Assembly (NCBI GenBank): GCA_030617765.1
Contig: JAUWUU010000008.1
Location: forward strand, 1-32,245
Length of the DNA stretch: 32,245 nucleotides
Source of the DNA: Flavobacteriia bacterium
Lineage (GTDB): Bacteria > Bacteroidota > Bacteroidia > Flavobacteriales > Flavobacteriaceae
Direction of reading: 5' to 3'
The position numbers were made by a program, and so were the translations under genes. How positions within the stretch are numbered: the stretch's first letter is position 1; each line of letters opens with the position of its first letter. Shown here one piece after another: positions 20,136-26,561 of the stretch. Below the pieces are notes generated by a model. That model saw only the letters and a program-made list of their open reading frames with translations. It had not been told where the DNA came from and did not search any database.

Positions 20136-20888
20136 TTACTTTTTTGTGCAAACAACTTGATTTTCATACTTTAAATTAATCGTGTCAAAATTTTTTAAAG
20201 TACTATCAGCTAATGCTTTTTGATAAAATGCTTTTAGTTTATTTTTTTTATTATTAAAATTTTGTACAGTTCCCAAAATAACAATTTGATCTCCAATTCT
20301 GGTTTTCAAAATAAATTGATTAACGCCCTCTTTTTCATTTTGATCTATACCAATAACTTGCTTTTTTAAAAAATCATCTTCTTTAATTCTTTTCGATAAA
20401 TTAATAATATCTAAATTATTATCCTCATCTATTTTACTCGAGACGATTGGTACTCGAGCCGAATAATTTTCAGACAATGGCATTTTCTTACCAAGTTCAT
20501 CATAATAATATGATTCTAATCCATTAACTACTCTTAAAACAGGGGTTCTTTGTGTAATAATCGCACCTAATTTATTATCAATTGTTGAATAAATTTCAGC
20601 ATTTTGGATCATTACATTTATTTTGACAAATTTTTCTAAATTATTCAAATGTAAACTTTCTATTGTTTGGTTATTTATGGTATCAAGTTTTTGTATTAAC
20701 AATTTATTAACCGTTTCATAAGTAATAAATAGGTTGTTTCCATTTTTAAATTCAATATCAATTTTATCAATCTTTTTATTAGAATGTCTATTAGCGGCAA
20801 ATCCGTATAAAAACAAAACCAGTAGGAAAAGAACTATAAATTTGATATGTACAATATATTTTTTCAATTTAGATTTTGATATTTTCAT
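20136..20888 (-). CDS. ftsQ: Cell division protein FtsQ
   Basis: A 250-residue bitopic membrane protein: a short basic cytoplasmic N-terminus, one transmembrane helix (about residues 12-31), then a periplasmic part with a POTRA-like domain and the FtsQ beta domain (conserved VNGLESYYYDELGKKMPL-like segment near residue 120). It links early and late divisome proteins. In relatives murC lies directly upstream; here the upstream neighbour is murG, separated by a 94-base gap containing an inverted repeat. The match rests on position and topology plus modest sequence conservation. Confidence 0.9.
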   Translation of the reverse strand: MKISKSKLKKYIVHIKFIVLFLLVLFLYGFAANRHSNKKIDKIDIEFKNGNNLFITYETVNKLLIQKLDTINNQTIESLHLNNLEKFVKINVMIQNAEIYSTIDNKLGAIITQRTPVLRVVNGLESYYYDELGKKMPLSENYSARVPIVSSKIDEDNNLDIINLSKRIKEDDFLKKQVIGIDQNEKEGVNQFILKTRIGDQIVILGTVQNFNNKKNKLKAFYQKALADSTLKNFDTINLKYENQVVCTKK

Positions 20889-20900
20889 TAATAATTAAAA

Positions 20901-20951
20901 CTATGGCAAACTAAAAGTTCAATCCCCTAATCAAACTTTTATTTGCCATAG
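20901..20951. repeat. Long inverted repeat in the murG-ftsQ gap
   Basis: The arms are 20901-20917 and 20936-20951. They pair over 16 bp (10 bp and 6 bp, interrupted by one bulged base) around an 18-base loop. On the minus strand the hairpin is followed by TTTTAATTATT and then the ftsQ ATG, so it could act as a transcription attenuator or mRNA structure before ftsQ. It fills the place where murC lies in related clusters and may alternatively be a deletion scar or a small palindromic element. Confidence 0.75.
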
Positions 20952-20982
20952 TAACCAAAGTATTTAGCACATTATGTTCATT

Positions 20983-22074
20983 TCAATTTAACAAAGCTTC
21001 AACGGCATCAGCAATTTTTGCTGTAGCATTAGGTAAAGCCAAATTTTTAATATTTACACTCAATTCTTTTTGCAATTGATTGTCTTCAAAAAGTTTATCA
21101 AATTCCTTCGAAAACTCCTTTATCTCATCCTCTTTAATCATTATTGCAGCATTATTTTTTACAACTGCCATAGCATTTTTGGTTTGATGATCTTCGGCAA
21201 CATTTGGTGACGGAATAAAAATTACCGGTTTACCTACCAAACACAATTCTGAAATTGTACCAGCCCCGGCTCTACTGATCAAAATATCTGCTGCTGCATA
21301 TAAAAGATCCATCTTCTGGATAAAAGCATGTGTTTGCACTCCTTCTATCTGATCGTATTTTTTATATTCATCAAAATATAATTTCCCTGTTTGCCATATA
21401 ATTTGAATTTCATTTTTAAGTAAATCTTTTAAGTTTTTTTCAATCGTTTGATTAATTGCCCTTGCTCCTAAACTTCCACCTAAGATCACTAATGTTCTTA
21501 ACTGTTTATCTAATCTAAAATACTTAACAGCTTCTTTTCTTTTTTTTGAAATATCAATAATATCTTGTCTTACAGGATTACCCGTCATGATAATTTTTTC
21601 TTTTGGGAAAAATTTATCCAATCCATCATAAGCAACACATATATTTTGCACATTCTTAGCTAATAATTTATTGGTAATACCCGGAAAAGAATTCTGTTCT
21701 TGAATCAAAGCAGGTATATGTTTTTTATTAGCCATAAACAATGTTGGTCCTGATGCAAAACCTCCTGTTCCTATCGCCACATCCGGTTTAAATTGTTTAA
21801 TAATATTTTTAGCTTTATATAAACTATCGATCAATTTAAACGGAAAGGTTAAATTTTTTGCTGATAGACTTCTATTAAATCCCGTAATATTCAATCCTTT
21901 TATCTTATAACCAGCCTGTGGAACTTTTTCCATTTCCATTCTATCATTTGCTCCAACAAATAAAAATTTTGCATTTGGAATCCTGCTTTTTAATTCATTT
22001 GCAATTGCAATTGCCGGATAAATATGTCCGCCCGTTCCTCCTCCACTCAACAATATGTTAACCGACTGTTTCAT
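20983..22074 (-). CDS. murG: UDP-GlcNAc:lipid I N-acetylglucosaminyltransferase MurG
   Basis: A 363-residue peripheral membrane glycosyltransferase that adds GlcNAc to lipid I to form lipid II. The N-terminal glycine-rich loop [16 protein letters not shown] (about residues 10-25), GTGGFASGP, and the C-terminal donor-binding [18 protein letters not shown] segment are all present. Length is normal. It overlaps the end of ftsW by 17 bases. Downstream, where murC is usually found, there is only a 94-base gap. Confidence 0.98.
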
Positions 22075-23263
22075 GTAAAATATCTAAAGGGTTTTCTAAT
22101 TCAATTTCAGTATTACTTTCGATCACTTTTTCAGTATTCGCAACACTTATACTCAACACAACTCCAATTGCAAAACAAGTCATCCAAATTGAAGTACCAC
22201 CTGTACTTATCAAAGGCAAGGGCTGACCAGTTACCGGAAACAAACCTACAGCAACTGCAATATTTATAAATGCTTGAAAAACAATGGGTATCCCAACACC
22301 TAAAGCTAATAATGTGCCGAAAATAGTTTCAGTTTTTGTGGTTATAATTACAATTCTAAAAAGTAACCCCAGGTATAATAATACTATTAAAATAGCTCCG
22401 ATCAAGCCAAATTCTTCAACTATAATTGCATAGATAAAATCGGAAGAAGATTGCGGTAAGAAGTTTTTTTGAACGCTCTTACCCGGGCCTTTACCATTTA
22501 TTTCTCCAGAAGCTATAGCAATTTTTGCTTTTTCAGCCTGATAATTATCTTCACTCTCTCCTGATGTAAAATTTTCAATTCTACTACTCCAAGTTTGAAT
22601 TCGAGTATTTTTTATTGCATCAGGAAAAGCTTTAGCTGTAAGTAAAAAGATAGCAAAAACTAAAACTGCCATTCCTAAAATGTACATAATATACTTGATT
22701 GGGTAACCTCCAAGAAATACCAAAAGCATTACCATAACAAATGCAATAGCCGTTGTTGAAAAGTTCGCAGGTAAAATAAGCAACATAACAATTCCAACAG
22801 GCAACCACAAATATAAAATACTCTCTTTAAAATTAATCTGTTTATCTCTATTACGGGCCAAGTATCTTGCTACAAACATCATAACAACTACGACTGCCAA
22901 AGTTGATGTTTGAAATCCCATTCCTACGAATGGAATTTGTATCCATCTACTTGCATTGGCTCCGCTTATTACGGTTCCCTGAGTCATTGTAAAAATTAGT
23001 AAAAGCACAACTACCGGCATCAGCAAAACTGACAATCCACTAAAATACTTATAGGGTATTTTATGAGTTGCATAAACAATAACAAAACCAAGTAATAATA
23101 GAATGGCGTGTTTAATTAAGTAACCAAATGTTGTTCCCTTTCCGGTTACATAAACAAGATTTGTACTAGAACTATACACAGGTAAAAACGAAAATATAGC
23201 CAAAACAGCAATGATTGCCCAAATGGTTTTATCTCCTTTAATATTTGCTAATAATTGTTTCAT
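22058..23263 (-). CDS. ftsW: Septal peptidoglycan polymerase FtsW
   Basis: A 401-residue SEDS-family membrane protein that polymerises lipid II glycan strands at the septum together with FtsI. About ten hydrophobic helices are seen. Conserved SEDS segments include [17 protein letters not shown], the large extracellular loop with [20 protein letters not shown], the [18 protein letters not shown] stretch, and [16 protein letters not shown] near the C-terminus. It starts 27 bases after the murD remnant. Confidence 0.97.
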
Positions 23264-23290: not shown

Positions 23291-23839
23291 TTATAATTTT
23301 CTAACTGCTTGCTTAAATTTTCTCCCTCTATCTTCATGATTATCAAACATAACATATCCTTCACATGCTGGTGACAACAATACAGCATCTCCCTTTTCGG
23401 TTAGTTTATAAGCAATACTTACCGCTTCGTGCATACTATGTGTTTCAATCATAAAATCAACAACATTTACAAAAGTTTTAATAATATTATGATTATTGTC
23501 TCCCAGACAAATAATAGCTTTTACTTTTTCTCGCACCAAAGGGAGTAAAGTTTCGTAATCATTCCCTCTATCAACACCTCCAACAATCCATACTAAAGGA
23601 AATTCAACACTATCAAGGGCATAATAAGCAGCATTAACATTTACGGCTTGTGAATCATTAATATATTGTACACCATTAATTTTAAGTACTTCTTCTAATC
23701 TATGTTCCTCTTGATCACAAATTGCTAAACTTTCTCTAATTGTTTCTTTTCGAACATGTAACAGTTCAGAAATCATTTTAGATGCCATAGCATTTTTAGT
23801 ATTGAAATTTTGTTGCAAAGCAAAAGCTGAAATACTCAT
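23291..23839 (-). CDS. murD: Truncated MurD: C-terminal ligase domain only
   Basis: A 182-residue open frame in the usual murD position, 23 bases after mraY. MurD is normally about 440-450 residues. The N-terminal UDP-sugar domain and the ATP-binding domain with its GTNGKTT loop are absent; what remains aligns with the end of the central domain (FNTKNAMASKM, EEHRLEE) and the whole C-terminal domain (QYINDS, IVGGVDRGNDY, VLLSPAC, NHEDRG). Residues that hold D-Glu in E. coli MurD are changed: the NDSKATN motif reads NDSQAVN (Gln64, Val66), the Lys of GGxxK is Arg91, and the Ser after SPACA is Gly161, with Glu160. It cannot be a ligase alone. It is either a decaying relic or a retained domain with another role. 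The frame is uninterrupted and has its own ATG. Confidence 0.9.
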   Translation of the reverse strand: MSISAFALQQNFNTKNAMASKMISELLHVRKETIRESLAICDQEEHRLEEVLKINGVQYINDSQAVNVNAAYYALDSVEFPLVWIVGGVDRGNDYETLLPLVREKVKAIICLGDNNHNIIKTFVNVVDFMIETHSMHEAVSIAYKLTEKGDAVLLSPACEGYVMFDNHEDRGRKFKQAVRKL

Positions 23840-23862
23840 TTAATTTAATTTTTTAATAATTA

Positions 23863-25095
23863 TTATCTTACTTTTAATGTTACTATGGATAGAACTGCAA
23901 GCAAAATACCTACGATCCAAAATCGAGTAGCAATTTTACTTTCGTGATAACCACTTTTTTGGTAATGATGATGTAAAGGAGACATCAAAAATATACGCTT
24001 ACCTTTTCCATATTTTATTCTCGTATATTTAAAATAGGAAACCTGTATCACTACCGATAGGTTTTCTATCAAAAAGACTCCGGCTAAAATTGGCAAAAGC
24101 AATTCTTTTCGCACAGCAATAGCCAAAACAGCAATTACTCCTCCAATTGTCAAACTTCCAGTATCACCCATAAATACTTGCGCCGGATATGTATTATACC
24201 ATAAAAATCCTATGAGACCTCCTACAAAAGCACTAAGAAAAATAGTCATTTCACCAGAGTTGGGTATATACATAACATCAAGATAATCCGCAAAAATGAT
24301 ATTACCAGAAACCCAGGAAAATACGGCCAATGCCAAAACAATTATTGCCGAACTTCCAGCTGCCAGCCCATCTATTCCATCCGTTAAATTAGCACCATTA
24401 GAAACAGCAGTAATTATAAATATTACTATTCCCACAAATAATAACCATACATAATCTTTAGCACCTTCACCTGCCCAGCTCAGCAAACTGGCATAATCAA
24501 ACTCATTATTTTTTACAAAAGGAATGGTTGTTTTTGTTGATTTATGAGCCTCAGTAAAATCACTGGTTGGATTGGTTAATTGTTCAATTCTAACAATCTG
24601 ATCACCACGTAATTTCTCTTTTACAACCACATCAGGATTAAAATAAAGAACAATGCCAACAAAGGCTCCCAGAATAACCTGACCAACTATTTTAAACCTA
24701 CCTTTTAAACCATCTTTATTCTTTTTAAAGACTTTGATATAATCATCGATAAAACCAATCATACCCATCCAAACAGTAGTTACTATCAATAAAATAATAT
24801 AAATATTGTGTAGTTTTGCGAATAGAAACACAGGAATTAAAGTTGCAAATATGATAATCAAACCACCCATAGTAGGAGTTCCCGTTTTTTCAACCTGACC
24901 CTGTAAACCTAGATCACGAATTGACTCTCCTACCTGCAAACGTCTTAATTTATCAATTATCTTTCTCCCATAAATTGTAGAGATCAATAATGAAAATGAA
25001 AATGCCATTGCAGAACGGAAAGAAATGTATTGAAACAATCCTGCGCCTGCTAGGTTGTGTTGGTTATCTAAATAATCAAATAAATAATATAGCAT
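23863..25095 (-). CDS. mraY: Phospho-N-acetylmuramoyl-pentapeptide transferase MraY
   Basis: A 410-residue polytopic membrane enzyme that transfers phospho-MurNAc-pentapeptide to undecaprenyl phosphate, forming lipid I. Conserved motifs are GTPTMGG (cytoplasmic), the DDY of [33 protein letters not shown] with its catalytic Asp pair, VFMGDTGSL, and [15 protein letters not shown]. An insertion of about 50 residues between the middle helices makes it longer than the 360-residue E. coli protein, as is usual in Bacteroidota. It starts two bases after the murE stop. Confidence 0.98.
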
Positions 25096-25097
25096 CT

Positions 25098-26561
25098 TTA
25101 TTTATTCATTTCAATTAGTAATTCATTTACAATTTTAAAATCATCAAAATCAGATCGAACATTGCCGATTATCTGATAGTTTTCATGACCTTTACCTGCA
25201 ACCAAAATGATATCTCCTTTGTCTGCCAACTTACATGCTGTTTTTATAGCCTGTTTTCTATTAGTGATAGAAACTGTTTTTTTATAATTTTCAGGATGAA
25301 CCCCTGCTTCAATGTCTTTAATTATTAATTCCGGGTCTTCACTTCGCGGGTTATCAGATGTAAAAATTACTTGATTACTCAAAGTAGAAGCGATGTTTCC
25401 CATTTTAGGTCTTTTATCTTTATCTCGATCACCTCCACAACCTACAACAGTAATTACTTGTTCATTATGAGTGCGGATAGAATTAATAGTTTCTAATACA
25501 TTTTTTAAAGCGTCGGGAGTATGAGCATAATCTACAATTGCTGTAATATCACCTTTTGAAGTAGCATACTGAAATCTTCCATCAACAGTTTTAAGGGAAC
25601 TAATAATCCTTAATGCTTCTAATTTTTCCATACCCAATAAATCAGTAGTTGCATAAATAGCTAATAAATTATAGGCATTAAAAGTTCCAATTAGTTTTGT
25701 ATAAACTTCCTGATCATTAATATTCAGCAACAATCCATCAAACTGATTTTCAATTATTCTTCCCTTATAGTCAGCCACCGTTTTTAAGGCATAGGTATAT
25801 TTGTTTGCCTTTGTATTTTGCAACATGACCTCTCCATTCTTATCATCAATATTCACTAATGCAAATGCTGATTTTGGTAGATTATCAAAAAAGTTCTTTT
25901 TTACATCTCTATAAGTTGCAAAAGAATCGTGATAATCCAGATGGTCATGAGTTAAATTTGTAAATACTCCCCCATCAAAATCTAATCCGGAAGTTCGTTT
26001 TTGATGAATTCCATGCGAACTAACTTCCATAAAACAATAACTTACACCCTGCTGTACCATTTTGTGTAAATATTGATTGATCGTTAATGAATCAGGCGTA
26101 GTATGTGTTGCTGAATATTCATTTTCATCAACCATTATCTTAATTGTAGACAACAATCCACTCTTAAATCCCGCTTCTTTAAAAAGCATATATAATAAAG
26201 TTGCAATAGTTGTTTTTCCGTTTGTTCCGGTTACACCAATTAATTTTAAATTCTCAGAAGGATTATCATAATAATTTGAAGCTATTATCGCTAAAGCTTC
26301 ATCACTATCTTTTACTTGTATATAAGTAACATTATTATGTAATGTTTTAGGTAATACTTCACAAACAATAGCTACTCCCCCACTTTCAATAGCTTTATCA
26401 ATAAAATTATGACCATCAAATAAAAGTCCTTTTTGAGCAACAAATAATGTATTCTCTATTACTTTTCTAGAATCAAAAGCAATATTATTGATATTGACAT
26501 CGGTTGTTCCATTTACCGCTTCAACAGATACTCTAAATAATATGTCCTTTAAAATTTTCAA
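25098..26561 (-). CDS. murE: UDP-MurNAc-L-Ala-D-Glu:meso-DAP ligase MurE
   Basis: A 487-residue cytosolic ATP-dependent ligase adding the third residue of the stem peptide. The ATP loop GTNGKTT is at about residues 112-118, GTFNAYN at 292-298, and DNPR at 403-406. DNPR is the motif that recognises meso-diaminopimelate, so the wall is predicted to be DAP-type. The start codon is TTG, eight bases after the ftsI stop; no ATG fits the expected N-terminus ([10 protein letters not shown]). All three Mur-ligase domains are present, in contrast with the murD remnant two genes downstream. Confidence 0.97.

Follow-up and report, generated by a model that had tools for sequence, protein, structure and literature searches.

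According to the available excerpts of PMC6420597, bacteria cannot do without the enzymes MurC to MurF, which are also drug targets; alternatives to this route are already in print. Mpl, a recycling ligase that leads to UDP-MurNAc-tripeptide, loads preformed peptide and so bypasses MurC and MurD (PMC3060825, in its available sections); the characterised enzyme is listed there with rates of 260/min for the tripeptide, 1.4/min for L-Ala-D-Glu and 0.7/min for L-Ala. The MurD2/MurL pair of Xanthomonas likewise replaces the D-Glu step, with epimerisation at the peptide level: a MurD-like ligase, MurD2, acts on UDP-MurNAc-L-Ala, without glutamate racemase as far as the accessible text of PMC8788868 describes it. 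A stand-alone MurD C-terminal domain, or a combined loss of MurC and MurD in Flavobacteriaceae, was not encountered in the open-licence literature, mostly the top titles among the matches listed.

The window analysed here is the whole 32,245-nucleotide stretch of contig JAUWUU010000008.1, from a member of the Flavobacteriaceae. The features of its dcw cluster that bear on the question are given below, where we assign the names mraY, ftsW and murG from content and take ftsQ to be so from content and position.

25098..26561, minus strand: murE, intact, with DNPR (NF001126, 637.7 bits, cut-off 373)
23863..25095, minus strand: mraY (frame; used in trees and for dN/dS)
23840..23862, minus strand: mraY/stub junction, 23 bases; site of the missing UDP- and ATP-binding domains of MurD (frames)
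23291..23839, minus strand: stand-alone MurD C-terminal domain, called the stub below, 182 aa (open frame, TIGR01087, PF02875, model, dN/dS)
22058..23263, minus strand: ftsW (frame)
20983..22074, minus strand: murG (frame)
20889..20982, minus strand: murG/ftsQ junction, 94 bases; murC is absent here (frames; murG-ftsA distance)
20136..20888, minus strand: ftsQ (frame)

Preceded by mraY and followed by ftsW, the stub is a single open frame of 182 codons that begins with ATG and covers the end of the MurD central domain and the entire C-terminal domain. The 441-position MurD model TIGR01087 aligns with it at positions 265-441 only, at 148.7 bits against a cut-off of 211.95; PF02875, the C-terminal domain, is the only domain matched in a Pfam scan, and phmmer aligns the product with residues 261-435 of E. 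coli MurD. The stub does not comprise the three domains of a MurD ligase (UDP-MurNAc-binding, ATP-binding and C-terminal). An AlphaFold model built on 24 sequences (mean pLDDT 83; 51-68 up to residue 50 and, beyond it, at least 89 in 13 of the 14 ten-residue blocks) predicts a MurD C-terminal fold, with MurD C-domains as the top structural matches (8dp2, Z 26.6, rmsd 1.2 Å over 142 residues) and Z of at most 13.5 for other Mur ligases. The first-pass annotation, made from the letters of the window, had described an intact frame for the MurD C-terminal domain alone, with no room for the front domains, and it was right on both points: between the end of the mraY frame at 23863 and the stub lie 23 bases. 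The stub is thus like full-length MurD in sequence, dcw slot, fold, NDS and SP loops and hinge arginine, and differs from it in lacking the UDP- and ATP-binding domains, in its lost D-Glu contacts, in standing alone and in the accompanying loss of murC.

The same arrangement is found in the murD slot of at least 15 genomes from six genera of Flavobacteriaceae. These comprise clade A (G000-G005, G044 and G272; eight genomes, G000 being that of the window) and clade B (G148, G337, G253, G405, G205, G227 and G390; seven genomes). A search of 397 genomes of the family with the stub gave 386 matches, including 330 of the 330 genomes whose completeness is 90% or more and contamination 5% or less. 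The seven weak matches that were opened proved to be MurD tails of 172-178 codons in the murD slot, in genomes with three or four central-domain genes; the figure of 15 is a lower bound, with these seven opened and frame lengths at hand for part of the 386. The gap between mraY and the stub, stop codon included, is 15-32 bases in the eight clade A genomes and 5-40 in the seven of clade B. Identity to the stub of the window is 62-89% for the rest of clade A, across two genera, and 23-46% for clade B, so that the idea of a fairly recent event, raised at first sight of the window, is not borne out.

The earlier annotation missed a second loss: murC is also gone. This gene normally lies between murG and ftsQ, where the window has 94 bases, and the distance from murG to ftsA (stop codon included) is 853 bases. 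Among the 11 stub genomes in which the script recognised both genes, this distance is 710-862 bases, versus 2042-2123 in six of six genomes with full MurD. In G227, ftsA went unrecognised, yet murG and ftsZ are 2.2 kb apart, too close for murC to fit in along with ftsQ and ftsA; in G002, G337 and G205 the sequence stretch ends before the murC slot is readable. Altogether the slot is empty in 12 of the 12 readable stub genomes (of 15), that of the window included. With murC gone as well, the question becomes one about the pathway rather than about a single gene.

In the genomes and stretches searched, the lineage of the window and other genera of Flavobacteriaceae are without MurC and full-length MurD. 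The window's genome (2.2 Mb, 166 contigs, 90% complete) has four Mur central-domain genes, which read as MurE, MurF, a 451-aa MurC/Mpl-like ligase (P0002) and FolC, where MurF and FolC are our presumed assignments from content, length and matched range. Mur-ligase searches of the six genomes of its genus (G000-G005) found no MurC or full MurD. In another genus, the genome of G044 comes as one contig (3,534,456 bases; completeness rating 100%) and has a 182-aa stub, an empty murC slot and only four central-domain genes, again read as MurE, MurF, MurC/Mpl-like and FolC. G272 has the gene set of G044 plus an 886-aa protein that is probably a cyanophycin synthetase. Among 41 genomes of the family that are at least 90% complete, the central-domain gene count is six in 32, seven in five, five in one and four in three, the last being G000, G044 and G054, of which G054 has full MurD. 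The MurC/Mpl-like query found MurC in eight of eight MurD-positive relatives and in none of eight stub genomes.

The first-pass annotation had proposed a genome-wide search for a full-length MurD or a MurD2-like ligase, and had named intact murD in relatives, combined with an assembly deletion here, as what would overturn it. No full MurD was found in the stub genomes searched, single-contig G044 included; intact-murD relatives do exist, but G044 carries the stub all the same. An assembly artefact is ruled out by this contig and by the recurrence of the stub in 15 genomes. A six-frame central-domain search reading through stops found no frameshifted or displaced MurD pieces in the slot, and no relocated MurC was found in the stub genomes by the Mur-ligase searches. 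MraY, MurG, FtsW and PBP are retained in stub genomes, and their presence together with MurE, MurF and the MurC/Mpl-like ligase indicates that these bacteria presumably still build peptidoglycan, with neither MurC nor MurD.

The stub frame is open in 15 of 15 genomes, and all eight clade A stubs align with 50 full-length MurDs without an indel in the 182 columns. Nine stub pairs were compared by the Nei-Gojobori method. The four close ones, all from clade A with dS of 0.14-0.62, give dN/dS of 0.099 (G000/G005), 0.104 (G000/G002), 0.067 (G005/G002) and 0.041 (G003/G001), with non-synonymous changes below the neutral expectation (Fisher p from 1.3e-7 to 2.7e-23); the five more distant and less reliable ones (dS 1.2-3.8) give 0.067-0.189. 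In the same close pairs, dN/dS is 0.026-0.064 for mraY and ftsW and 0.137 and 0.045 for murG (two computable pairs), and the murE values come partly from part frames, the script having started at the first Met. For the C-domain of full-length MurD, two pairs of other genera give 0.036 and 0.037. The stub ratios lie above these yet far below 1, which suggests a tail that is somewhat freer than in working MurD and firmly constrained. The codon comparisons show purifying selection keeping the MurD tail in place in clade A. Neither the relaxed selection nor the stops and frameshifts of a pseudogene are seen, given the clade A ratios and the 15 open frames. A simple pseudogene, which the first-pass annotation would have recognised by dN/dS near 1 with stops, is contradicted by ratios of 0.04-0.10 in the four close clade A pairs and by frames free of stops. 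Its suggestion of a retained non-ligase role has gained good support from these comparisons, with 15 open frames, the low dN/dS, and ligase contacts lost but the fold apparently kept.

In MurD, Thr321, Lys348 and Ser415 contact D-Glu (E. coli MurD numbering, counted on the E. coli alignment), and each is found in 50 of 50 full-length MurDs of relatives, which served as the reference set. The window has Val, Arg and Gly, respectively, at these positions, together with NDSQAVN, all as first noticed in the sequence. Thr321 is kept in none of the eight clade A and two of the seven clade B stubs, Lys348 in three and none, and Ser415 in two and none, so that the D-Glu contacts of a MurD ligase are mostly lost in both clades; Thr321 has become Glu in four of eight clade A and three of seven clade B stubs. 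Ala414, present in 49 of 50 full MurDs, is kept in one of eight and none of seven, and the adenine-loop residues Gly265 and His267, invariant in the 50 full-length MurDs, in none of either clade, in clade B partly owing to a later start. By contrast, NDS, Trp84, Gly113, Ala139, Ala143, Leu154, Ser156 and Pro157 (stub numbering) are kept in 15 of 15 stubs. Arg302, which is reported to contact the ADP α-phosphate (PMC4816537, in the part available), is kept in 14 of 15. As judged from the alignments and the predicted fold, the side chains that would hold D-Glu are gone, and the fold and two loops beside the old pocket stay, in parallel in both clades.

What might take the place of MurC and MurD is suggested by P0002 (L003 1180-2535; G000:C79), a 451-aa MurC/Mpl homologue with all three Mur domains. 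Thirteen of the 15 stub genomes have it, one of them only in part, and all six stub genera are represented; the drafts without it are G002 (51% complete) and G253 (95%). It scores 233.1 bits against the MurC model TIGR01082 (cut-off 335.1) and 170.1 bits against the Mpl model TIGR01081 (cut-off 388.7), and 12 of 12 sequences have ELHTYSS where Mpl has EPRSNT (the latter from PMC3060825, available sections). Ligases of the P0002 type form a third group in Flavobacteriaceae, under both the MurC and the Mpl cut-offs. A changed specificity of this ligase or of MurE in stub genomes was looked for, and little was seen. The MurC/Mpl-like ligase is nearly unchanged between genomes with and without MurC and MurD: six clade A ligases differ from those of six relatives by four fixed differences, none in the C-domain, and one position, Trp282, has a pattern compatible with a change in both clades, in a comparison that left out G002, G005 (partial) and G253, which have no whole frame. 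MurE, compared with G002 and G405 left out, has DNPR in 22 of 22 sequences, which we take to denote the meso-DAP type; two positions differ in stub genomes, and it is otherwise nearly unchanged. That MurE is intact and nearly unchanged suggests UDP-MurNAc-dipeptide as an intermediate.

A dipeptide epimerase orthologue accompanies the stub in 14 of 15 genomes (six of six genera) and occurs in 17 of 47 others (15 of 43 genera). The association by genus has a Fisher value of 0.004 with relatedness ignored, on counts in which related genomes are not independent and the limit of E <1e-70 was set after the table had been viewed, two others lying at 6e-39 and 3e-38. In the search for a gene confined to stub genomes, the epimerase emerged as associated with the stub, though other genomes have it too. 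In G205 the gene runs off the end of a contig, and in both groups several copies were flagged with a stop in the matched stretch. The stub genome without it is G000, in which the contig that carries murI stops short of the position of the epimerase in G005, and the draft gave no match to the enolase-type model. The 346-aa protein of G044 has the N and C domains of the enolase superfamily (PF02746 and PF13378, above cut-offs) and, among 11 PDB sequences, matches 3iji at 2e-58 and 1jpd, an L-Ala-D/L-Glu epimerase, at 6.6e-35, likenesses that make it a putative member of that enzyme family. In G227, a genome in which no MurC or full MurD was found, a dipeptide-epimerase gene (L200 16616-17632) adjoins mraZ, where the dcw cluster ends. 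Glutamate racemase (MurI) lies over its cut-off in seven of eight clade A genomes, the eighth, G004, being 69% complete.

The reading that we prefer, with a probability of about one half, is that the MurC/Mpl-like ligase attaches a peptide made beforehand, after which MurE continues, and that the tail is a non-catalytic partner. UDP-MurNAc would no longer be loaded stepwise with L-Ala and then D-Glu; instead, P0002 would join to it a preformed peptide, most likely L-Ala-D-Glu, that the dipeptide epimerase and recycling might supply, and MurE would then add meso-DAP as usual. More tentatively, the tail may hold an assembly of the ligase, MraY and MurG, or close over the nucleotide of another Mur ligase. 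With a non-catalytic partner role it would be understandable that the stub has kept its fold, hinge arginine, NDS loop and SP loop and lost the D-Glu contacts. A scaffold would also fit the published association of Mur enzymes, described in the available excerpts of PMC6420597 for MurE-MurF with MurG in Bordetella. Compared with Mpl, the difference would be that P0002 is the sole entry route and that MurE is retained, besides the scores and the residues at EPRSNT. Unlike in the Xanthomonas route, with its full-length MurD2 and no racemase, MurC and full MurD are both gone here and MurI is kept in clade A.

Several observations count against this reading. The weak use of L-Ala-D-Glu and L-Ala by Mpl puts both short substrates within chemical reach, but at rates far below that for the tripeptide, and P0002 falls below both the MurC and the Mpl cut-offs. 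The retention of MurI in clade A means that the cells probably continue to make free D-Glu. An epimerase-only route could do without this racemase, and its retention argues against that part of the explanation. The one mapped MurD partner met in the literature covered binds residues 53-103, outside the tail (PMC12208494, in the part available), and in the two very divergent stubs of genus g223 His301, Glu304 and the GG loop are gone. A bolder form of the proposal, to which we give distinctly less credence, is that twice in Flavobacteriaceae both amino-acid steps were replaced by loading of preformed L-Ala-D-Glu (or a longer peptide), and that each time MurD was reduced to its C-terminal domain, the tail becoming an obligatory non-catalytic subunit of the loading machine.

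The kept residues and the kept racemase can also be read in terms of catalysis. If the stub closed in trans over the ATP-loaded N-terminal and central domains of P0002 or MurE and helped to add D-Glu, as in a split ligase, the retention of Arg302 in 14 of 15 stubs and of the Asp of NDS in 15 of 15 would be expected, and the D-Glu probably still made by MurI in seven of eight clade A genomes would have a use; yet most stubs of both clades have lost Thr321, Lys348 and Ser415, and both P0002 and MurE have C-domains of their own, which makes such help unlikely. Slightly better placed, though still improbable, is a ligand-binding regulator, whose remodelled pocket would sense a nucleotide or UDP-MurNAc-peptide and tune MraY, MurG or a ligase. 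The invariance of NDS and SP beside an old pocket whose contacts were rebuilt, with Thr321 replaced by Glu in half of clade A and three of seven clade B stubs, would suit a sensor, but these invariant residues may be structural only.

Two further accounts are less probable still. That MurC and MurD lie elsewhere and were missed, on unbinned contigs or a plasmid or by divergence too great for the models, draws on the state of the data, as 14 of the 15 stub genomes are drafts (51-99% complete) and short central-domain matches stand at contig ends in G003 (C9, 110-aa frame) and G253 (C64, 149-aa frame). The single contig of G044, rated 100% complete, speaks against it, as do the control genomes, where the central-domain model matched in 12 of 14 and the C-domain model in 11 of 14, and we regard it as quite improbable. 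The least probable account is that of a relic, a MurD gene without its front part that is slowly decaying. It could draw on the relaxed D-Glu contacts, on g223 stubs that are 23-25% identical to that of the window, and on stub ratios somewhat above those of the full-length C-domain, higher still among some distant pairs; against it stand the open frames and indel-free clade A alignments, purifying selection (Fisher p as low as 2.7e-23), and the same outcome in two clades.

Several flavobacterial groups thus appear to be without two cell-wall enzymes thought necessary, and their cell-wall pathway must differ. If true, bacteria that have MraY, MurG, FtsW and PBPs but neither MurC nor MurD would show that there is another way to supply the first two stem residues. 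A stand-alone MurD tail that is under selection without ligase contacts would, if true, argue on genetic grounds that a domain of a Mur ligase can have a structural or regulatory function, a point of relevance to the multi-enzyme Mur complex debated in the available excerpts of PMC6420597. Both claims are open to ordinary biochemistry on proteins of environmental bacteria.

The number of origins was approached through trees. In a tree of mraY and ftsW from 53 of 58 loci, clade A is grouped (support 84) inside a group with G139, G333 and G243 (support 100), three genomes with intact murC and murD; the latter grouping has a support of only 0.106 in a four-protein tree of 42 selected genomes. That tree places clade B elsewhere and rejects a single stub clade (AU p 0.009, from 5000 replicates, too few according to the program), whereas a nine-protein tree of 19 genomes does not reject it at 0.05 (AU 0.064). 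In a tree of the C-domain itself, all 15 stubs are grouped (support 0.81), with AU of 0.43 versus 0.57, so that neither alternative is rejected. The clade A start is a Met that is conserved within 48 of 50 full-length MurDs, and four clade B stubs start 9-11 columns later. On this sequence evidence, two independent truncations are likely but not proven, and the stub may have been transferred between the clades.

The tails of genus g223 (L200 9342-9857, from G227, and L201 10247-10780) have 28-32% identity to their best query. Both have also lost most of the HRLE hinge, and they are still open frames in both species. In the related genus g135, which keeps MurC and MurD, the MurC/Mpl-like match is partial, with 42-45% identity and an internal stop (G333:C1:389998-390546, L101; G139:C47:130897-131445, L102), possibly the reverse loss.
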